From positions 62,001 to 126,000 of the forward strand of contig CAMCVK010000003.1 in assembly GCA_945881865.1 (NCBI GenBank): DNA of 64,000 bases. Reading direction: 5' to 3'. Source of the DNA: Fimbriimonas ginsengisoli Gsoil 348 (GTDB lineage Bacteria; Armatimonadota; Fimbriimonadia; Fimbriimonadales; Fimbriimonadaceae). This document shows, piece after piece, positions 7,349 to 49,415 of the stretch. The notes under the pieces were generated by a model. It made no database searches, was not told the DNA's origin, and worked only from the letters and a program-made list of their open reading frames with translations. Position 1 is the first letter of the stretch; every line of letters starts with the position of its first letter. Position numbers and translations under genes: made by a program.

Positions 7349-8333
7349 GTTGCGTCCAATCGAGAACAATGCCAAGCGAAGGCTGCTTTTGCTGGATCAG
7401 CGACAACATTTCGGGTGCCTGCGCGAACGGCACGTGGTGCGAGACGATGTCGCGAAAACGCATTTTGCCTGCCGCCATCAGGTCTAAAGTGGCCCCGAGC
7501 CGCGCGCGCGTCCAACCGGAGACGAAGTGCGCGGTCACCTCGCGTTGCTGCAAATGGGCCATGTTCGCCCAGGTGTCGCCCGAGCTGAATCCGGCATAGA
7601 CGATTTCGCCGCCGCGCGGCGGCAAAAGATCCATGTATCGCGACTGAACCGCCTCGCCCTGGATCGTGTCGATGATCGAGAAAACTGACTCGAGGCCAGT
7701 TTCGCTTCGCACCGCCCCGACGAGATCGGACTCTTTGCCGTTCACCGTCGCATCGATGCCCGCTTTCCGGGCAATCTCAAGTCGCTCGGCACGATGGCCA
7801 ACCAACACGACTTTCGCCCCGCGTGCCCGGGCCGCCTGCGCGGCGCATTGGCCGATGACACCATCCCCAAAGACCGCCACCCAGTCGCCGGGCGTGATGG
7901 TCGCGCGGGAGGCCGCATTAAACCCAACCTGCGCGACGACAAAACTGGCCGCATCGACCGGATCCACCCCTTCCGGAAGGCGATAGATCTCGCCTTCGCT
8001 CGTATTGGCCAACCCGATGTGCGAACCCCACATCGAAGCGACGCCTTCCGGCGCCGAAGCCCACGTCGCCGCCACGCGCTCTCCGATGGCCCAGCCGCTA
8101 ACGCCGTCGCCAAGGGCGGTGACCCTGCCGACGCGCTGGTAGCCCGGAACGCATGGATACTGCGTAGGCTGCCAAGTGAAGACATCCTGCAATACCCAGC
8201 CTTCTGTACCGGGGCTGATCACGCTGAACTCAGTCTTCACCTGTACTTCGCCCGGGGCCGGGGGCGGGACCGAGACCTCGCGGACGGCGACCTGCCCAAG
8301 TGACTCAAAAACTACGGCGGGCGTCAGGCTCAT
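7341..8333 (-). CDS. Zinc-independent MDR dehydrogenase
   Basis: A 330-residue medium-chain dehydrogenase/reductase with an N-terminal GroES-like domain (about 1-130) and a Rossmann domain containing VAVFGDGVIGQCAAQAARARG. The usual catalytic Cys of zinc alcohol dehydrogenases is absent; the corresponding segment reads SVISPGTEGW. This resembles the zinc-free sugar dehydrogenase/BchC-like branch. The start overlaps the stop of the SDR gene (ATGA) and its end overlaps the glycosidase start, so it is translated as part of one operon. A role in oxidising a sugar released by the operon's glycosidase is inferred. Confidence 0.75.
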   Translation of the reverse strand: MSLTPAVVFESLGQVAVREVSVPPPAPGEVQVKTEFSVISPGTEGWVLQDVFTWQPTQYPCVPGYQRVGRVTALGDGVSGWAIGERVAATWASAPEGVASMWGSHIGLANTSEGEIYRLPEGVDPVDAASFVVAQVGFNAASRATITPGDWVAVFGDGVIGQCAAQAARARGAKVVLVGHRAERLEIARKAGIDATVNGKESDLVGAVRSETGLESVFSIIDTIQGEAVQSRYMDLLPPRGGEIVYAGFSSGDTWANMAHLQQREVTAHFVSGWTRARLGATLDLMAAGKMRFRDIVSHHVPFAQAPEMLSLIQQKQPSLGIVLDWTQHE

Positions 8334-9100
8334 CGGATCGTCCAGCCTCCGTCTACCAACATCGTCGTGCCGGTGACCAGCGACGACTCGCGTGAGGCGA
8401 GGAACAGCACGGCGGCCGCGACTTCGCGCGGCTCACCGATGCGATGAAGGGCGGCGATGCGCTCCTCCACGTCCGCGCGGCGTGCGGGATCAGCGAGGTA
8501 AGGGGTGGTTCCGGGAGTCCAAACGAAGGTCGGAGAGACGGCGTTGACGGTGATTCCGAAGCCGCCCCACTCGATGGCCATGCACCTCGTCAGATGGTTT
8601 AGCGCGGCCTTTGCCATGCAGTAGGTTCCGTCGCCCGGCAAAACGATGGTGCCGGCCTGCGAACTCATGTTGATGATGCGGCCGTAAGCCTGCTCGCGCA
8701 TGATTTTTGCCGCCACCTGCGAAGCAAAAAACGAGCCCTTCACGTTTTGACTCATCACGTAGTCGAACTGGTCTTCCGTAACGTCGAGCAGATCGCTTCC
8801 GCAGGCACCGCCGACATTATTCACGAGGATATCGAGCCGCCCCAGCGCGGCCGCCGCCTCGGCGACGCCCTCGCGAACGCGCGCCAGGTTGTGAACATCC
8901 ATTTCGATCATCACGGCGCGCCGACCGGTCGCTTCGATTTCGGCAACAAGCTCGGCGGCGGCGTTCACATCCCGAACGCCGATCGCGACATCTGCACCGG
9001 CCTGGGCCAGCGCCAGGGCGCATTCGCGCCCAAGACCTTTTGCAGCGCCGGTGACGAGGGCCGTTTGGCCAATTAACGAGAAGTACGGTGACATGCTCAT
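8330..9100 (-). CDS. Short-chain dehydrogenase/reductase
   Basis: A 256-residue classical SDR using NAD(P)H. The cofactor motif TGAAKGLG is at residues 17-24, NNVGG follows, and the catalytic set is MSS with YCMAK (Tyr about 160). The C-terminal LVTGTTMLVDGGW is typical of FabG/gluconate-5-dehydrogenase-like sugar dehydrogenases. It starts at ATG 9100, nine bases after the ADP-ribosylglycohydrolase-like gene, and its stop overlaps the next start. It sits with an MDR enzyme in a sugar operon, which favours a sugar or sugar-acid dehydrogenase over fatty-acid FabG. Confidence 0.8.
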   Translation of the reverse strand: MSMSPYFSLIGQTALVTGAAKGLGRECALALAQAGADVAIGVRDVNAAAELVAEIEATGRRAVMIEMDVHNLARVREGVAEAAAALGRLDILVNNVGGACGSDLLDVTEDQFDYVMSQNVKGSFFASQVAAKIMREQAYGRIINMSSQAGTIVLPGDGTYCMAKAALNHLTRCMAIEWGGFGITVNAVSPTFVWTPGTTPYLADPARRADVEERIAALHRIGEPREVAAAVLFLASRESSLVTGTTMLVDGGWTIR

Positions 9101-9109
9101 GATCTTGCG

Positions 9110-10450
9110 CTAGGCGGGCAGATGTTTTGCGGTCTTTTCGGCGAGGCCGGTCAAGCTCACTTTTTCGTATCCCTTCACGCCGGTCTCGAGCGAGTCTTGG
9201 AGCGGGTCGAGCCACTTCGCCGGGATGGACGACAGGCCGTGCGCCGTGCCAAAGATGGAGCCGGCAGTGGCTCCGTTGCAGTCCGTATCGTACAGTGGCT
9301 CAACGGCGGCGCAGATGGTCTTCTCGAAGTCATCCTCACCCCAAAGCAGACCAATGGCGACCACGACCGCGTTGGTAATCGTGTGGGTCCAAACGTGCCA
9401 GCTGTCCTCGTCATACTTGGCGCGTACGACCTCGATGACCTCTCGCAACGAGATGCCGGAATCACGCCAAACGATCGCTTCCTTGATGGCGTCGGCAAGC
9501 CGGCACTCGGCAGGAATCTCGCCGAGCCCCGCGGCAATGATCTTGCGAACGTCGGTTGTTGTGAAGGCGGCGGCGATACACGCGGCCGCCCACATTTCGC
9601 CGTAAATTCCATTTCGGATGTGGGAGATTCGGGCGTCCCGCCAGGCCATCTCAGCGGCAAGCTCGGGGTTACCCGGATTGACATAGCCAAAATAGTCGGC
9701 TCGAATCTGCGCGCCGATCCACTCTCGGTACGGGTTCTGATACGTTGCTGACTCATGCGGCGCGATGCCGTTCACAAAGTTGCGGTAGGCAATTCGCTCG
9801 GCGGTGCAGGTGTGGAGAATGGGGATATTTTCAAGCCAGAACGTCACCACGTCGCCACTGGTGAAGTCGCGACCATATTTCTCGACAGTCGCCAAACCGG
9901 TGACGGTGTAGTTCATGTCGTCATCTTCGGGCATGCCGTGGCAGCGGTCGATGAGGAACGCGCCGGACCACACGTTTTCGCCGAACGCCGCGTCCCAGGT
10001 TCCGGGTGCCACGTCGTCGGACCGCAGATACCGGTGCATCGGCAAATTGCCCGAGCCCGCTAGGATTGGATCGACTAGCTTGCTTCGATAGCCTTCGATC
10101 GGCTTGCCGAGAAGGCATCCCGCGGCGCGGCCGCACCAGGCTCCCTTCAATCGCTCGTCGATGTCCTGGGGAACGGGTCCCAGTTCAACGCGGTCGGAAG
10201 GTCGCAGCGCGCGAATCGCATCCAGTTCATCCGGTTCTCGGGCCGCAAGTCCATCATTGGTCGGAAGCGACTGAACGTCATCCATGAACTTGCGGAATCT
10301 CGCTTGGGTCTCCGGGAGATCGAAGTCGGCCGCCTTGAGCGCGGCAATTTCCGCCTCGACGGAACTGAGATCCCGGCCCTCGTCGCCGAGCTGTTGAAGC
10401 TCGGTCTCGAGGTCGGTGGTGGTCATATGGAGCCAGATGAACTTATGCAT
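9110..10450 (-). CDS. ADP-ribosylglycohydrolase-family protein
   Basis: A 446-residue protein with an N-terminal helical extension of about 110 residues and an ADP-ribosyl_GH (DraG) fold. Family blocks are RLKGAWCGRAAGCLLGKPIEG (split here as GAWCGRAAG and LLGKPIEG), the metal-site acidic cluster MPEDDDMNYT, and the C-terminal DTDCNGATAGSIFG. DraG relatives bind two Mg ions and cleave ADP-ribosyl bonds, but many members in carbohydrate operons have unknown substrates. Start ATG 10450 has AAGGAT 7 nt upstream and lies 3 nt past the previous stop. The open frame further upstream runs into the beta-helix gene and is not used. Confidence 0.75.
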   Translation of the reverse strand: MHKFIWLHMTTTDLETELQQLGDEGRDLSSVEAEIAALKAADFDLPETQARFRKFMDDVQSLPTNDGLAAREPDELDAIRALRPSDRVELGPVPQDIDERLKGAWCGRAAGCLLGKPIEGYRSKLVDPILAGSGNLPMHRYLRSDDVAPGTWDAAFGENVWSGAFLIDRCHGMPEDDDMNYTVTGLATVEKYGRDFTSGDVVTFWLENIPILHTCTAERIAYRNFVNGIAPHESATYQNPYREWIGAQIRADYFGYVNPGNPELAAEMAWRDARISHIRNGIYGEMWAAACIAAAFTTTDVRKIIAAGLGEIPAECRLADAIKEAIVWRDSGISLREVIEVVRAKYDEDSWHVWTHTITNAVVVAIGLLWGEDDFEKTICAAVEPLYDTDCNGATAGSIFGTAHGLSSIPAKWLDPLQDSLETGVKGYEKVSLTGLAEKTAKHLPA

Positions 10451-10452
10451 TT

Positions 10453-12273
10453 CTACGATCCTTGCGGTTTGGAGATTCTTGGATTCACGTCGAAGCGGTT
10501 TTGCCCCTCGCCAAGGGTGGCAAACGGGCCGGGAGCGCTGTTCGGCCCGCGAAGGTTGCCAAAATAGTCGCGCGGGCATTCGGTAGGGGTCGGAACGACC
10601 GGGCTGACCGCCTCCTTCGAGAGCCGAAGCTCGAAGTAGGTATCCCGCGCGGCAAGGGTGGTGGTCCCTTTCACCACGGCGCCGTTTTCGGAGGTGATTC
10701 GGAACGCGCCGGGCGCGAAGCTGTGCCGGTCGAAGCCGAGCTTTTGCCACTCTTCAAGCTTCAGGTAGGCGTTGCCGCTGTTCGAGTCCGGGGTCACGCC
10801 GGCGTCCGTGAGCTGCTTGTCCAGCACCGCGCGCGGGAGGTTGCCATCGTTATCGCCCAAGCAGAAGCGGTGGAAGCCCAAGCCCTCCCACTGCCACTGC
10901 GTGCCGTTGATGAAGTGGTTGTGTTCGCTTAGGTTGCCGCTGGAGCGCTCGGCGACGGCCGGCAGGCAAATGTGGCCGCGGTAGTTATCGATGAAGAGGT
11001 TGTTCAGCAACTGGTTCTTCGAGCATCCCGCCGGACGCTCGACCCCGTCCTTGTGCGGAAATGGGCGGTCGGTGACGTAGCGCATGTAGATGCCGAAGTG
11101 CGCGTTGCCAAAAACCAGGTTGTGCGCAATCAGGACGTCGTTGGCGTCGTGGCTGTAGATTCCGTCGCCGAGACGCGTGTAGGCAACAATGTTGTGGTCG
11201 ACGGTTGCTTTGTCCGCACCCAGCTCGATGAAAATTCCGCAGCCAACATTGTTCACCACAAAATTTCGTGAAACGCGCGCGCCGGTCCAAACGGCATCAA
11301 GCCAGATTCCGGCGGCCTCATTGTCGCGGATGATATTGCCTTCAATGACACCATCGATAAACTCATGAAACTTGAGGCCGCCCTCTTCAACGGTTGCCAG
11401 CGAGAGGCAGGAATTTCGTTCGACGATGTTGTTGCGGACGACGGTCCGCTTGGACCGCTGGCCGCACGCGCCGACCTCGCCGTTATCGCAAAGATGGTTG
11501 TCCTCAATCAGGTTGTCGTGCGGAATGATGCCGTCGCCGCGCTCGGCTCCGCCGCCGATTCCCGAGTCGATGCCGATCGTTTTCGCATAGCGCACGACGT
11601 TGCCGGCAAACCGGATGTGGTGACCGGCGCGGAAACCTACCGCTCCGCACTGGCGTCGCTGGACTTCCCAGAATGCCGCGGCCGATTGGTTGGCGCATCG
11701 CTCGAAAACGAAGCCCTCAACGTTGAAGTAGCCCATTCCTCGATTGAGCGGGGCAAAGAGCCGGTCGCGCAGGGTGACTTCGACCTGTCCGGGCGTCGAA
11801 TCGGACGAGACGTGGATCTCGATTTTGGTGCCGTTCTCTAGGGCGGCCCAAGTGCCGGGCTGCAGAGCCTCGCCATTCACCTCGCGCATCATCTGGTCGC
11901 CGATGAAAACCTGGCCGAGGGTTCCGCCGATTCGGCTTCCGTCGAGGCGCATGGCGAACGGATTTCTCGCCGCGATGAGCGCGGGCGGCAGAACGAGAAC
12001 GTGCCTTCCCGGCGCAAGCGGCGTTTCCTGCAAGATTTCGGAGCCGCGCACGATGGCCGCGTGCGGGATCGCCGACCGAATCGTGATCGGCTTGCCTTCG
12101 GCTCCGCTCTTCGGCGGAGTGACGGTTTCTCGGTAGATCCCGGGGGCAACGTTCACCGTGTCGCCGGGTCCGGCCAGCTTCAACGCGGCGTTGATCGTCT
12201 TGGTTGGCTGGTCTTTTGAACCGGGTCCGGCGTCGCTGGCGGAGGGGTGAGATATGTCAGTCCAAAATTCCAT
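10453..12273 (-). CDS. Right-handed parallel beta-helix protein
   Basis: A 606-residue protein whose start resembles polysaccharide-active beta-helix proteins (DUF1565/NosD-like): DISHPSASDAGPGSKDQP, then TINAALKLAGPGDTVNVAPG. The centre (about 190-420) has many short turns of the form IEDNHLCDNG, VRNNIVERN and IEGNIIRDNEAAGIWLD, which are parallel beta-helix rungs. No signal peptide is evident, unusual for this class. It is the first gene of the five-gene minus operon and shares a 124-bp promoter region with the divergent glycosidase. That region holds a palindromic operator. Lyase, epimerase or glycosidase activity is possible; none can be assigned. Confidence 0.75.
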   Translation of the reverse strand: MEFWTDISHPSASDAGPGSKDQPTKTINAALKLAGPGDTVNVAPGIYRETVTPPKSGAEGKPITIRSAIPHAAIVRGSEILQETPLAPGRHVLVLPPALIAARNPFAMRLDGSRIGGTLGQVFIGDQMMREVNGEALQPGTWAALENGTKIEIHVSSDSTPGQVEVTLRDRLFAPLNRGMGYFNVEGFVFERCANQSAAAFWEVQRRQCGAVGFRAGHHIRFAGNVVRYAKTIGIDSGIGGGAERGDGIIPHDNLIEDNHLCDNGEVGACGQRSKRTVVRNNIVERNSCLSLATVEEGGLKFHEFIDGVIEGNIIRDNEAAGIWLDAVWTGARVSRNFVVNNVGCGIFIELGADKATVDHNIVAYTRLGDGIYSHDANDVLIAHNLVFGNAHFGIYMRYVTDRPFPHKDGVERPAGCSKNQLLNNLFIDNYRGHICLPAVAERSSGNLSEHNHFINGTQWQWEGLGFHRFCLGDNDGNLPRAVLDKQLTDAGVTPDSNSGNAYLKLEEWQKLGFDRHSFAPGAFRITSENGAVVKGTTTLAARDTYFELRLSKEAVSPVVPTPTECPRDYFGNLRGPNSAPGPFATLGEGQNRFDVNPRISKPQGS

Positions 12274-44707: not shown

Positions 44708-45792
44708 AGCGCTGGTACCTGGACAACGCCGCGACCACGCCGCTGGCGCCCGAGGTTCGCGAGGCGATGTTGCCTTGGCTGGACGCCGGGAACCCGAGCA
44801 GTCTGTACCGCGAGGGCCGCGCGGCAAAAGCGGCCATCGACGAAGCCCGCGAGCGCGTGGCCGAGCGGGTCGGGTGCCTCTTTGCCGAGGTGATCTTCAC
44901 CAGCGGCGGGACCGAGGCCGCAAATTTTGCCATTATCGGGGCGGCTCTGGCAAATGAAAACCCGCAACGCCGGCGGATTCTCATCTCCGCAGCGGAGCAC
45001 CATTGCACCTTGGAAACGGCCGCCGTGCTGACCCGGCTCGGGTACCAGGTGGAAATCACGCCGGTTGATCGCCTGGGCCGAGTTTTGATCGATCAGATCG
45101 CGTTCGACGATGACGTCTTGCTGATAGCGGCGATGCACGCGAACAACGAACTGGGAACGTTCAACGACGTAGGCGAAATCGGGCGCCGGGCGCGTGAGTC
45201 CGGCGCGCTCTACTTTTGCGATGCCGTGCAAACCTTCATGAAGCACCCGGTGAGCCTCTACGCCCTCGGTGCCGACCTGATCGCCGTCTCCGGCCACAAG
45301 ATTCACGGACCGAAGGGAATCGGAGCCTTGATCGTACGCGCCGGAACCAAGCCTAAGCCGCTCATCAACGGCGGCGGGCAGGAGCGCGAAATGCGAGGCG
45401 GAACCGAGAACGTCGCCGCCATCGTCGGGCTCGGCGAGGCCGTCCGGCGTGAGCCAAAACCCGGCCGCGTCGCCTCCCGCGAGGCATTTCTCTCGGAAGT
45501 CCCCGCCGTGCGGACCGTCCCGGCCGATGCACCAAGCCTCGCCGGACACGCGCACGTTCGCATTCCCGGCAAAACCGCCGAGACCGCGCTCATCCGGTTG
45601 GACCGGGCGGGAATCTCGGCGAGCAGCGGAGCCGCGTGTAGTTCGGGTAGCACCGAGCCCTCGCACGTCATGCTGGCCGCCGGGTTCTCGGTGGCGGAGG
45701 CCCGGGAAGGGCTTAGGTTCACCCTTCCCACCGAAATGACCGAAACCGAGGCCCGCGACGCGGGCCGCGCCGTCGCAGCGGCCCTCGGTTAG
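44704..45792 (+). CDS. Cysteine desulfurase (NifS/IscS-like)
   Basis: A 362-residue PLP-dependent class V aminotransferase-fold enzyme that takes sulfur from cysteine for Fe-S clusters or tRNA thiolation. It opens YLDNAATTPLAPEVREAMLP. PLP Lys199 is in SGHKIHGPKGIG, preceded by His in AAEHHCTLET. The persulfide Cys312 is in SSGAACSSGS. GGGQEREMRGGTENVAAIVG is also diagnostic. It is slightly shorter than typical IscS (about 400). ATG 44704 overlaps the GT2 stop, so translation is coupled, yet no iscU or mnmA is adjacent. The frame open to 44641 lies inside GT2 and is rejected. The stop overlaps the convergent outer-membrane gene. Confidence 0.88.
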   Translation: MKRWYLDNAATTPLAPEVREAMLPWLDAGNPSSLYREGRAAKAAIDEARERVAERVGCLFAEVIFTSGGTEAANFAIIGAALANENPQRRRILISAAEHHCTLETAAVLTRLGYQVEITPVDRLGRVLIDQIAFDDDVLLIAAMHANNELGTFNDVGEIGRRARESGALYFCDAVQTFMKHPVSLYALGADLIAVSGHKIHGPKGIGALIVRAGTKPKPLINGGGQEREMRGGTENVAAIVGLGEAVRREPKPGRVASREAFLSEVPAVRTVPADAPSLAGHAHVRIPGKTAETALIRLDRAGISASSGAACSSGSTEPSHVMLAAGFSVAEAREGLRFTLPTEMTETEARDAGRAVAAALG

Positions 45793-47585
45793 CGGGTTCT
45801 CAGCCTGGCAAAAACGCCAAAGCTAACCGGACTGGAACCGTAAGCCGACTTCAACGCCTCCGGAAGGAACGAGAGCGACACGTAGGCACCGACGCCAAGT
45901 CTTTGCTTACCGGGCAGCTCCTTCAGCCCGCCAAACGTCAACTTGCCAACCCGGTGCGTTCCGGCTGGAACCCCGGCAAGCTCGTCCTTGTCGACGCTCT
46001 CCATCCGAAAGAACAGGCTCCCCGAGGGCATGCCCTGGGTGACTTCAAACAGAAGTGCGCCCAGCTTTTCGTCTCCGTGCAGGTTACTGGCCGCGATGAA
46101 GGTCGCCGCCAAGTTGCCGTTACCCGGACGGTTGTAGTGCACGCCCAGCACCCAGCGGTGTCCGTTTTCGGTTGGCATGCTCGCCTCGGGCGAGCGGAGG
46201 AACCCGTAGGAAACGTTCGCCGACCAGTCGGAGCTCGGATTCCACGTGAGCCTCCCCGAATACGAGTTGATTCGGATCGGATCGAACTGGAACCGCCGGC
46301 TATCCGGCTCGCGGCCATTGAACGCGCTGGCTTCAAGTTTCCACCTATCCGCTAACTGCAGTCCCGCCGTAAGAACCCCGTACGTGATGTGCGTTCCGTC
46401 GTTCCAATGATGGTTGATGGGTGCCTCCGGAATCTCCAGACCGCTCTCGCGGTGGGGAAATGCGGCCGTCCCGAGGGCCGGCTCGCCGATCGGCGCGAGA
46501 TACAAGAAGCCACGCGCGCCGCGACCGATTGGCCGGGATAGGGTCACCGCCGCCTCCATGAGGGCGTCGTGCGGGTGTTGCCGGTCCGTTAGGCCCTCAC
46601 CGGTTTGCAGGAGCACCGGGTAGCCACGATCCCCGTTGGTCAAGGCATCCAGCGAGCCCATGAGCCGCAGGCCAACTCGGGTTCCCCGAACTTCACGTTG
46701 GGCCATTCCCATGAGCATCGAGTTGGCCGCGAGCTGACGCTCGCCCCTTTTTCCGCCGGCGTCCACAGCAAGGAACTGCACCATTCCCATTGTCATGACG
46801 TCCCACCCACGAAAGGGCGACTGCATCGTCATCGACATCGGCGAACTCCCCGGCAACCAGGTTGTGCCGGAGCCCTCTTGCGCCATTCGCGCTGAGAAGG
46901 CGCCAGTCATCTCGCCCATATCGTCCGCCATCACGGCCATGTCGGCAACCGCCATCGAATGGCCCATCCGACCGATACCGGCGGCTTGACCGTTCAGGCA
47001 TTGCCCGCAGATGCCGAGCTTCTTCGCCTTGGCTCCGTCTTTGGCGACGGCACGCTGGTCGGCCAGTAGGTTCGCCGCACAGCCGCAGTTCTCCTCCCGG
47101 GCACATTCGTCACATCCGCCGTTGCCAACGCAGCAGCCAAAGCGACCTTCCTTTACCAGGGTTCGCTTCGCCTCGTTCATCAGCTCGCCGTACTTGGCAA
47201 GCGCGGCATCCGGCGTGCCTTTAGGCGGAGACTTGACCGCAATCACCTTCGGAACGGCATCCTTCGGGAACAGACCCCGGCCATTCTCATAGCCCGCTTT
47301 ACACTCGCCGCAAACCCCGTTTCCGGAGACAAGCTCCGGGCCGCAGTCGCAACGCCCACGCAAGCGAAGGCAGAGGTCGCAGCCGGGAGCTTTGCCCGCC
47401 ATCGGCCGGATGCAACAATTCATCCGGCCGTCAGCGGCGGCAGCTACTTTCGCGGTTTGCAGTTCGGCTTGCGCTTGAAGCAAGATTCGCGCCGCAAGGC
47501 TTGGCACGCGCAGTCCCGCCGGAGGATGGGCGAAGCCCGCCACCGCCATCAGCAGGCAAACGAGCGTGACCCAAAGCCGGATCAA
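45789..47585 (-). CDS. Exported Cys/Met-rich protein with probable outer-membrane barrel
   Basis: A 598-residue exported protein with leader MIRLWVTLVCLLMAVAGFAH. Residues 55-205 hold many Cys pairs (MNCCIRPM, PGCDLCLRLRGRCDCG, GVCGECKAG, FGCCVGNGGCDECARE, ICGQCLNG). A Met/His-rich stretch follows (MGHSMAVADMAVMADDMGEM, SPMSMTMQSPF, WDVMTMGMVQF). The remaining 330 residues contain DRQHPHDALMEAAVTLSRPI and alternating beta strands ending in ARLRTR, like an outer-membrane barrel. It starts at TTG 47585 overlapping the upstream stop (TTGA). Thiol and thioether ligands suggest soft-metal, probably copper, binding. Not matched to a named family. Confidence 0.65.
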   Translation of the reverse strand: MIRLWVTLVCLLMAVAGFAHPPAGLRVPSLAARILLQAQAELQTAKVAAAADGRMNCCIRPMAGKAPGCDLCLRLRGRCDCGPELVSGNGVCGECKAGYENGRGLFPKDAVPKVIAVKSPPKGTPDAALAKYGELMNEAKRTLVKEGRFGCCVGNGGCDECAREENCGCAANLLADQRAVAKDGAKAKKLGICGQCLNGQAAGIGRMGHSMAVADMAVMADDMGEMTGAFSARMAQEGSGTTWLPGSSPMSMTMQSPFRGWDVMTMGMVQFLAVDAGGKRGERQLAANSMLMGMAQREVRGTRVGLRLMGSLDALTNGDRGYPVLLQTGEGLTDRQHPHDALMEAAVTLSRPIGRGARGFLYLAPIGEPALGTAAFPHRESGLEIPEAPINHHWNDGTHITYGVLTAGLQLADRWKLEASAFNGREPDSRRFQFDPIRINSYSGRLTWNPSSDWSANVSYGFLRSPEASMPTENGHRWVLGVHYNRPGNGNLAATFIAASNLHGDEKLGALLFEVTQGMPSGSLFFRMESVDKDELAGVPAGTHRVGKLTFGGLKELPGKQRLGVGAYVSLSFLPEALKSAYGSSPVSFGVFARLRTR

Positions 47586-48703
47586 TCCTTCACCTGGATC
47601 GTGAAGGAGAAGGTGAGGATTTTGTCCTTCCGCTGAACCTGCGCGAACGCCCGGTAGTTGCCCGATTTAGGGAAACGAGCGTTGAAACGGATTTCGCCGG
47701 TCTGCGCCGGAACTTCGTCGGGATGCGAGTGGACCGCCGTCAAGCCGTCTTGGCGGAAGATCATGAGGTGGCCCATTGCCCCCAACCACGGAGTTAGGTC
47801 CGTAATCCGTTGGTCCGTTGCCGGATCAATGAGTCGCAAGGTCACCGGAACGGAACGCCCAACTGGGATTCCATCCGACGGAAGGATGAGTCGTCCGGTA
47901 ATGCCTTCGGCCGAGCTTGGGCCGAGGTTCTGGTTCCAGTTCTCCGCTCGTTTGGGGGCGGGCCCTGGAATTCGCACCGGTGCCATCAGGATCTGCGACC
48001 CCTTGCCTGCCGGGGCAACATCGGCGTAGACGAAGTAGTTGCCGCCGTAGGGGAACTTGAAGGGCATTTCCCAAGTTCCGTCCGCACGCATGACGGGATG
48101 CTCATGCAGGAACCAGGTGAAGTCCGAAGATGCTACAAGGAGATGTAGCTTCTGTTCGTGGGCGACGTCGAAATCGGTGACGACCTTTCCGGTTTTGGAC
48201 TCCAAAACCTTCAGGCGCAGGGTCCCGTCGGTTTGGGCGGCTTCCAGACGATACGGTTTTGCCTTCGGTTTTCGGCCCTTTTGGCCTTCGTCTTGAACGT
48301 TCACCATAAACTTCGCCGTGAACTTTTCGCCGTCTGGCACGGTGAGATCAAGGCGAATCGCATACTCGCCGCCGTGCGGGAAGAAGGCCTCAATGCCGTA
48401 GTCGCCGGGCACGCCTTCGGCATGGATTTTCGGCCTTGCCGACGGCATTCCCGCCATGGAGGGCATGGTGATGACGGCCACCGCTTTTACGTCCGGGACG
48501 CCGGCCGGGCCGAGGATCGGATCATCCTGTTTTCGATCTCCGACGCGGAATTCAATGTCAACTTCCTCGCCGGCGAAAACGCCCTCGCTCGGAACGCGAA
48601 GCTCCACGCGATAGCGGTCGGTGAGGAAAACGTTTTGGCTTGCGGATTGCCCCGACGACATGGTCGTCAGGGCAATTGCCGCGCTCAAAGCGAGCGCTAG
48701 CAT
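47582..48703 (-). CDS. Exported beta-sandwich protein, YtkA/FixH-like
   Basis: A 373-residue secreted protein with a short leader ending near GQSAS. It appears to contain three Ig-like beta-sandwich modules: about 25-135 (YRVELRVPSEGVFAGEEVDI, ITMPSMAGMPSARPKI), 140-250 (LKVLESKTGKVVTDFDVAHE, WFLHEHPVMRADGTWEMPF) and 270-373 (LILPSDGIPVGRSVPVTLRL, LGAMGHLMIFRQDG, AVHSHPDE). The His- and Met-containing loops recur in each module, as in YtkA-like and CopC-like proteins. It is third in a four-gene secreted operon, 4 nt after the small Cys-rich gene. A periplasmic metal-binding role is inferred. Confidence 0.65.
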   Translation of the reverse strand: MLALALSAAIALTTMSSGQSASQNVFLTDRYRVELRVPSEGVFAGEEVDIEFRVGDRKQDDPILGPAGVPDVKAVAVITMPSMAGMPSARPKIHAEGVPGDYGIEAFFPHGGEYAIRLDLTVPDGEKFTAKFMVNVQDEGQKGRKPKAKPYRLEAAQTDGTLRLKVLESKTGKVVTDFDVAHEQKLHLLVASSDFTWFLHEHPVMRADGTWEMPFKFPYGGNYFVYADVAPAGKGSQILMAPVRIPGPAPKRAENWNQNLGPSSAEGITGRLILPSDGIPVGRSVPVTLRLIDPATDQRITDLTPWLGAMGHLMIFRQDGLTAVHSHPDEVPAQTGEIRFNARFPKSGNYRAFAQVQRKDKILTFSFTIQVKD

Positions 48704-48707
48704 GCTA

Positions 48708-48938
48708 CTAAGCTCCGGCTCCCTTCACGATCTTGCTTGCAGGCTTCGGGCAGCAGCTGCCGCCGGATTTGACTCCGGCTGTTTTCTTGCCGCTCTTCAT
48801 CTTTGCATTGCAGGTGCAGGCGCCGGCGGTGCAGCAGGTCATCGAGGCCTTGCCGGCCTTGGCGGACGAGGTCGCCTGACCGGGCATGGCGAAGGCGGCG
48901 AGAGCGACGAACGTGGATAGCGTGATAAATTTGAACAT
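48708..48938 (-). CDS. Small exported Cys-rich protein
   Basis: A 76-residue protein with signal peptide MFKFITLSTFVALAAFAMPG. The mature part is Lys-rich, with ASMTCCTAGACTCNAKMKSG and GGSCCPKPASK, giving CC-x3-C-x-C and CC clusters. No known family; it looks like a secreted metal-chelating peptide, metallothionein-like in spirit only. It lies between another Cys-rich exported gene (60-bp gap) and the YtkA-like gene (4-bp gap), all on the minus strand, so co-expression is very likely. Confidence 0.65.
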   Translation of the reverse strand: MFKFITLSTFVALAAFAMPGQATSSAKAGKASMTCCTAGACTCNAKMKSGKKTAGVKSGGSCCPKPASKIVKGAGA

Positions 48939-48998
48939 GGTTTCTTCGTAGTTGGGAAGGCAAATTGGCCCGCAGCACGAGGCGCAGGCAGGGGACGA

Positions 48999-49415
48999 CT
49001 ACGAGAGAAACGGCGGAGCGCGGGGGGAGGCGGTGCCCCGAGGCGGCGCGTTTGCCCGGTTGGTTTCACCGAGCAATAGGCGACGGCCGCCGGAGATCAC
49101 CCCGCGACCAGAAGGAATTGTCGCCGAAGCTACGAGTATGGCTACGGGAGAAAACGGGACCGTTTGCGGTGTGGGGAAAAACTGCGAAACCGGCGCGACG
49201 ACGCAGGTGCAACCCAGGTTCGCGTCTCGGCTTCCGATGTTCGTCGCGGTCTTTGGCTGGCAGCACGCCATTCCGCATTTCGGTGCCACTACGGCCGCGC
49301 AGCACGCTGGCTCTGGGGCCTCCGTCTTCGCAAAGGCGGCAAACGGAAAAAGACTGGCGACAAATAGGAGCGCGAAGATAAGATTTCCGATTCGGTTTCG
49401 CGGCTCCATCATCAT
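48999..49415 (-). CDS. Exported Cys-rich protein, first gene of metal-type operon
   Basis: A 138-residue protein. After three Met residues near the start, IGNLIFALLFVASLFPFAAF is a signal peptide. The mature N-terminus PACCAAVVAPKCGMACCQP and LGCTCVVAP hold a CC-C-CC-C-C pattern. The C-terminal half is Arg/Pro/Gly-rich. No domain recognised. It is probably the first gene of the four-gene secreted cluster, 32 bp downstream (on the minus strand) of uppS. Function is inferred from Cys content and neighbours. Confidence 0.6.
   Translation of the reverse strand: MMMEPRNRIGNLIFALLFVASLFPFAAFAKTEAPEPACCAAVVAPKCGMACCQPKTATNIGSRDANLGCTCVVAPVSQFFPTPQTVPFSPVAILVASATIPSGRGVISGGRRLLLGETNRANAPPRGTASPRAPPFLS

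Follow-up and report, generated by a model that had tools for sequence, protein, structure and literature searches.

The window, the whole 64-kb stretch of DNA analysed here, has four genes in its open reading frame list that follow one another in the order A, B, C and D on the minus strand. The DNA belongs to an Armatimonadota genome, and its nearest named relatives are Armatimonadetes bacterium 55-13 and Fimbriimonadaceae MAGs. The four genes are tightly packed. The gap between A and B is 60 nt, that between B and C is 4 nt, and C and D overlap. Upstream, uppS ends 32 nt ahead of A, and no sigma-70 promoter was found before A. The gene beyond D is convergent. Each of the four proteins begins with a hydrophobic, signal-peptide-like stretch, and the preliminary description of this DNA as carrying a four-gene operon of exported proteins is borne out. 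The genes and the three elements proposed to control them are listed here.

48999 to 49415, minus strand: gene A, 138 residues with 7 Cys, exported, ending in RAPP-FLS (open reading frame and family alignment).
48708 to 48938, minus strand: gene B, 76 residues, exported, with CC, CxC and CC motifs, metallothionein-like.
47582 to 48703, minus strand: gene C, 373 residues with 0 Cys, exported, rich in Met and His, with a YtkA/CrdA-like Met domain and two beta domains.
45789 to 47585, minus strand: gene D, 598 residues with 17 Cys and 26 Met, exported, with two 8-Cys modules, a Met-rich stretch and a probable outer-membrane barrel.
49011 to 49022, minus strand: RAPP codons of A (R132 to P135), the proposed stall site (sequence; RAPP arrest is known from CruR, PMC12992588).
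48998 to 49011, minus strand: anti-Shine-Dalgarno arm GUUUCUCUCGUAGU, beginning with the final base of the second Pro codon and including the A stop codon (fold and duplex).
48940 to 48952, minus strand: partner arm ACUACGAAGAAAC, which is the ribosome-binding region immediately 5' of the B ATG (fold and duplex).

Pfam and NCBIfam models give no family match for A, B or the D barrel. The preliminary description had picked out A and B as small proteins rich in CC and C-x-C motifs. The motifs are present, but the end of A was overlooked. It consists of RAPP (R132-P135) followed by FLS. Homologues are 16-31% identical to A, and C51, C52, C69, C71, R132, P134 and P135 are invariant in an alignment of 22 sequences. 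The same description had made its metal-binding reading depend on the cysteines being conserved as a cluster, and in A they are, while the Cys pattern of the D head (see below) recurs far beyond chance. By profile search, 64 of 291 Armatimonadota genomes have a member of the A family; the genome of the window has a single copy. Because this profile includes the RAPP end, the presence of RAPP among the sequences it finds is not independent evidence. Spacing, neighbours and RNA pairing test the idea better.

One clue is position. When Cys-rich open reading frames of 80-240 residues are considered, 19 of the 48 that lie directly upstream of C or D end in R[AGS]PP, compared with 5 of 575 in other positions (p = 5e-19). 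L035, L096 and L098, and so at least three of the five, resemble family members, being neighbours of copper genes or falling just outside the distance rule. Another clue is spacing. RAPP follows the last CxC at a distance of 57-66 residues in the set linked to C or D, with one outlier, despite varying total length. The distance is 61-68 residues in nearly all measurable cases among 40 further loci. The next gene in this further set encodes a YHS, YtkA, cupredoxin or CusB-like HlyD/HMBD protein where it could be classified, and the remainder includes a few unclassified small proteins. What might such a constant distance mean? A span of ~60-65 residues from the motif to the active centre would be roughly enough to bridge the ribosome tunnel and the Sec channel. 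By the time RAPP is translated, the CxC would then be at the outer Sec exit.

The RNA provides the third line of evidence. In the window, GUUUCU-C-UCGUAGU, which starts at the end of the second Pro codon and runs to the A stop, pairs with the ribosome-binding region of B, and this stem is predicted by the minimum-energy fold as well as the centroid fold. The duplex energy is -15.4 kcal/mol, and among 21 Shine-Dalgarno sites its own site ranks first. The surrounding 146-nt region as a whole is no more stable than its shuffles (z -0.57). The pairing is specific to each locus. At 21 D-linked loci the mean for own partners is -12.56 kcal/mol versus -8.22 (sd 0.56) for permuted partners. The corresponding values are -14.46 versus -10.24 (sd 0.44) at 37 further loci and -12.10 versus -8.79 (sd 0.45) at 30 loci with similar ones removed. 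In each of these three sets, 0 of 200,000 permutations matched the own pairing. A synonymous-codon control points in the same direction, more weakly (p = 0.003). When each GU pair is counted as half, an unbroken helix with a score of at least 8 occurs at 27 of 58 loci versus 4.7% of mismatched pairs. Pairing is weak or absent in L095, L098, L107 and L183. Relative to the start codon, the helix has a median position of -15 to -7; counted from the first base of the Arg codon, it lies 9-16 nt downstream. This is the stretch that a ribosome halted at the two Pro codons would occlude. A separate case is L104, where a near-perfect inverted repeat of ~40 bases lies between A (which ends at 7456) and D (which starts at about 7621), spanning the A stop codon and the D ribosome-binding region. 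The repeat has the look of a palindromic insertion that has assumed the role of the masking stem.

The RAPP tail, the fixed CxC spacing and the anti-Shine-Dalgarno pairing together indicate that A is probably a regulator, a copper-sensing arrest leader rather than a part of the sequestration or export machinery. This probably removes A from the earlier claim that all four proteins sequester or export metal. That A acts as an arrest leader through the stem is, in our judgement, a strong likelihood.

There are precedents for such a leader. CutF of Rhodobacter capsulatus (cutFOG) is exported during synthesis and senses copper via CxxxC, and the proposal is that its stalling opens up a stem in the mRNA in which the cutO Shine-Dalgarno sequence is otherwise hidden (PMC9973294). 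Like A, it is a short Cys protein exported by Sec, has a Pro-rich end and stands at the head of a copper operon, with a stem over the next Shine-Dalgarno sequence. However, CutF is a DUF2946 protein that controls a multicopper oxidase, and its CxxxC lies 45 residues from the end motif, a distance that its authors place in the outer vestibule of SecY (PMC9973294). A instead has CxC and CC, about 57-68 residues to RAPP and an anti-Shine-Dalgarno sequence within the RAPP-to-stop codons. The second precedent is CruR of Bordetella pertussis. RAPP is the CruR arrest motif as determined by in vitro translation and toeprinting (PMC12992588), and it is needed for copper control of the CruR operon (PMC9426467). 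A and CruR share a C-terminal RAPP, a Cys metal motif at a fixed distance and a place as leader of a copper operon. The differences are that CruR uses CxxC at 45 residues, is Rho-dependent, turns off a TonB importer and has a dispensable signal peptide (PMC9426467). Most of the RAPP-like sequences of E. coli and B. subtilis that were tested did not stall (PMC10987492). SecM/secA-type arrest peptides are also comparable, in that a RAGP-like stall opens a masked ribosome-binding site, although they sense export and not metal.

Membership of A in DUF2946 was considered and rejected. A has no PF11162 match, the best of 22 family members reaches E 0.24, and a profile search of the window's own genome did not find PF11162. 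The export signal, the Cys motif and the Pro-rich/RAPP C-terminus are all present in A, whereas a CxxC or CxxxC 45 residues before the end motif is absent. Given the lack of a profile match and the different Cys motif and spacing, A would work like CutF and CruR without being a member of their family.

The link with copper comes mostly from relatives. In L030, A is followed in a single direction by a YHS-domain protein in the B slot, C, D, CsoR, CopZ and a CopA ATPase. L031 has A-C-D. L035 has A, C, a NosL/MerB-like protein and D with a similar head, followed by a copper ATPase; a second A-type RAPP leader (L035:4667-5275, minus strand) heads an operon of TolC and a YtkA-CusB-cupredoxin fusion. 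In L032, A precedes a cupredoxin-like protein and then a YtkA-D fusion. C is directly before D in 14 of 41 D loci and one gene apart in 2 more. A Cys-rich open reading frame ending in R[AGS]PP heads the gene set in 20 of the 41, and about half are without a recognised leader. Further afield, D homologues on Sphingobium plasmids lie behind a MerR regulator, a glutaredoxin-MauE protein and two small Cys proteins, with DUF305 after them and, in one of these plasmids, a copper ATPase after that. On a Pontibacter plasmid the D homologue is flanked by a copper ATPase on one side and a four-helix copper-binding protein on the other. Proteins on 237 plasmid records match the C-terminal half of C, and in a Staphylococcus plasmid the gene for one of them directly follows copZ of a csoR-ATPase-copZ operon.

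Gene neighbourhoods and homology together therefore support extracytoplasmic copper handling well, and by this comparison of sequences the operon very probably serves copper handling in the cell envelope. Three things speak for the extracytoplasmic copper system proposed in the preliminary description: the A-[YHS]-C-D-CsoR-CopZ-CopA runs, the CrdA likeness of C, and D beside copper ATPases on unrelated plasmids. Its remark that no P-type ATPase or copper regulator is adjacent is correct within the window but does not extend to relatives, where CsoR, CopZ and CopA are in the same run. A copper ATPase was sought in the genome of the window and the candidate was rejected, since the only heavy-metal P-type ATPase found there passes a Cd/Zn-type model and scores 336 against a copper cut-off of 397. 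The sole CsoR-family gene of that genome (L050:4986-5282, plus strand, contig C6) is away from recognised copper genes.

What do the other three proteins do? B has no clear relative in 85 family genomes (there are two marginal matches), relatives have a YHS protein in its slot, and any role given to it is guesswork. C is better defined. Its N-terminal domain matches YtkA (PF13115, E 1.2e-10), and its structure model is usable (pLDDT 76). Foldseek alone gave generic Ig-like matches for C; a second comparison found CrdA, which superimposes on the first domain with Z 14.2 and rmsd 1.9 over 102 residues, including the Met loop. CrdA of Helicobacter pylori is a periplasmic copper-resistance protein that binds copper, by its authors' model via a Met-rich loop (PMC9182242). 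Unlike CrdA and YtkA, with which it shares fold and Met loop, C has two extra beta domains with invariant H187, H200 and H202 and H312, H325 and H327, which are likely copper(II) ligands. C is thus, we infer, a three-domain Met/His copper carrier, and the repeated His/Met beta modules described earlier are real.

D is more complex. Its head has two copies of CC..CxxC..CxC..CxxC, at residues ~57-95 and ~151-196. Among 2.78 million translated residues there are 28 instances of this pattern, and every one is in a D head or a stand-alone head protein. Stand-alone frames of 143-189 residues with one D-head-like 8-Cys module each are found in L013, L014, L015, L016 and L019, and three that were scanned have no Pfam match. 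A Met-rich stretch follows the heads of D, and then a probable barrel (~260-598) with invariant Met, His and Asp and strongly conserved DxQHPH, HR, HHWxDxTH and MxM motifs. In relatives this barrel is fused to a YtkA head, a NosL-like head or none. L032 has two D copies tail to tail (7507-8802, plus strand, and 8852-10513, minus strand), only one of which has the YtkA head and A leader. No solved homologue of D was found by sequence, and no D relatives were found in viral contigs. The head and Met-rich stretch of the preliminary description are evident in the sequence. The barrel that it proposed is supported by conservation and predicted strands (about 14-15), although the model, built from three sequences, is poor (pLDDT 35); D is a probable outer-membrane barrel on the strength of this low-confidence prediction. 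The PcoB/CopB barrel is 12-stranded.

Identification of D as CopB/PcoB was rejected for want of a PF05275 match. D would share with PcoB a copper-linked barrel and a metal-binding N-terminal stretch, which in PcoB is needed for copper efflux (PMC12509749), but D has Cys modules there, or YtkA or NosL-like heads in relatives. PF05275 was not found in any of the 291 Armatimonadota genomes, whereas D is in 38 of them, so D may fill PcoB's place. It is somewhat more probable that D is an exporter or surface sink than an importer.

A single scheme can accommodate these observations. It starts from what the sequences establish, namely gene order, family conservation, the RAPP tail, the fixed spacing, the covarying stem and the copper neighbourhoods. 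A would be exported during synthesis, and its CC/CxC cluster would emerge beyond the membrane while the RAPP end is able to hold the ribosome. Copper(I) bound to the cluster would prolong the arrest. The stalled ribosome would then cover the anti-Shine-Dalgarno arm, from the RAPP codons to the stop, and free the B ribosome-binding site, allowing B, C and D to be translated. Without copper, A would be completed, the stem would close and B to D would stay low. B and the Cys modules of D would bind copper(I). The Met domain of C would carry copper(I) and the His domains of C probably copper(II), and D would pass copper to or across the outer membrane. Arrest, copper as the ligand, the sign of the response and the direction of transport are the inferred parts. 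We put the probability of the whole explanation, a copper-responsive envelope operon with A as its nascent-chain sensor, at about 0.72. That copper raises B-D expression is, taken singly, likely.

What if the switch works the other way? As in CruR, copper could relieve the arrest, with Rho ending transcription after A, so that the operon is off with copper and D is a copper importer. The RAPP tail is that of CruR, and PcoB, an outer-membrane copper barrel, has been described in one report as taking up copper (PMC9210255). The 3' end of A also forms a C>G stretch, at 0.26 against a background 95th percentile of 0.256, but Pro-rich codons yield such stretches anyway and confound this value. Moreover, the downstream genes of relatives are of detoxification types (CopA, CsoR, CopZ, CusB and YHS) with no TonB receptors, and Rho control needs no Shine-Dalgarno pairing. 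We regard this alternative as unlikely.

Perhaps no switch exists at all. The preliminary description implies that A is an ordinary secreted metal binder, with all four proteins serving sequestration or export only; control would then fall to the distant CsoR. The CC and CxC motifs of A and a CsoR-family gene elsewhere in the genome suit this, yet it leaves unexplained the RAPP end, the constant CxC-RAPP distance and the locus-specific pairing with the next Shine-Dalgarno sequence, and is quite improbable. Finally, the architecture could stand unchanged with another soft metal as ligand, such as silver, mercury or zinc. CC and CxC motifs are not copper-specific, and one solved CrdA structure contains silver. 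However, neighbours such as CopA-type ATPases, CopZ, cupredoxin and CusB-like proteins point to copper or silver, and another soft metal in place of copper is very unlikely.

If the nascent-chain scheme is true, copper outside the cytoplasm is read by a half-made protein, and not by a classical regulator, in a little-studied phylum. The A family would then be a large set of independent natural variants that share a fixed distance from sensor to stall, on which the geometry of metal sensing by nascent chains could be tested directly. It also suggests that arrest leaders outside DUF2946 are now annotated as "secreted Cys-rich metal proteins". The pathway was earlier called undescribed. This is too broad, given that the YtkA/CrdA domains, the YHS neighbours and the CutF/CruR leader principle are known, but it is apt for the D barrel family, the 8-Cys heads and the A leader family, which are without a Pfam or NCBIfam model. 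The D barrel family is a candidate PcoB counterpart in a phylum seemingly without PcoB. The chances are about even that a class of sensors found across the phylum detects extracytoplasmic copper by the nascent chain itself, with the CxC kept ~60-65 residues from the ribosome's active centre and so roughly where the Sec channel ends, that the arrest codons double as the anti-Shine-Dalgarno sequence, and that the target is an outer-membrane copper route with an undescribed head-swapping barrel family.

The Sphingobium plasmids provide a last observation. The two small Cys proteins before D (L022:8138-9528 and L023:8224-9596) are in an order like that of A and B, and the first of them has a Pro-rich APPPPR/K tail. 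From this tail, the leader idea may be extendable to Alphaproteobacteria.
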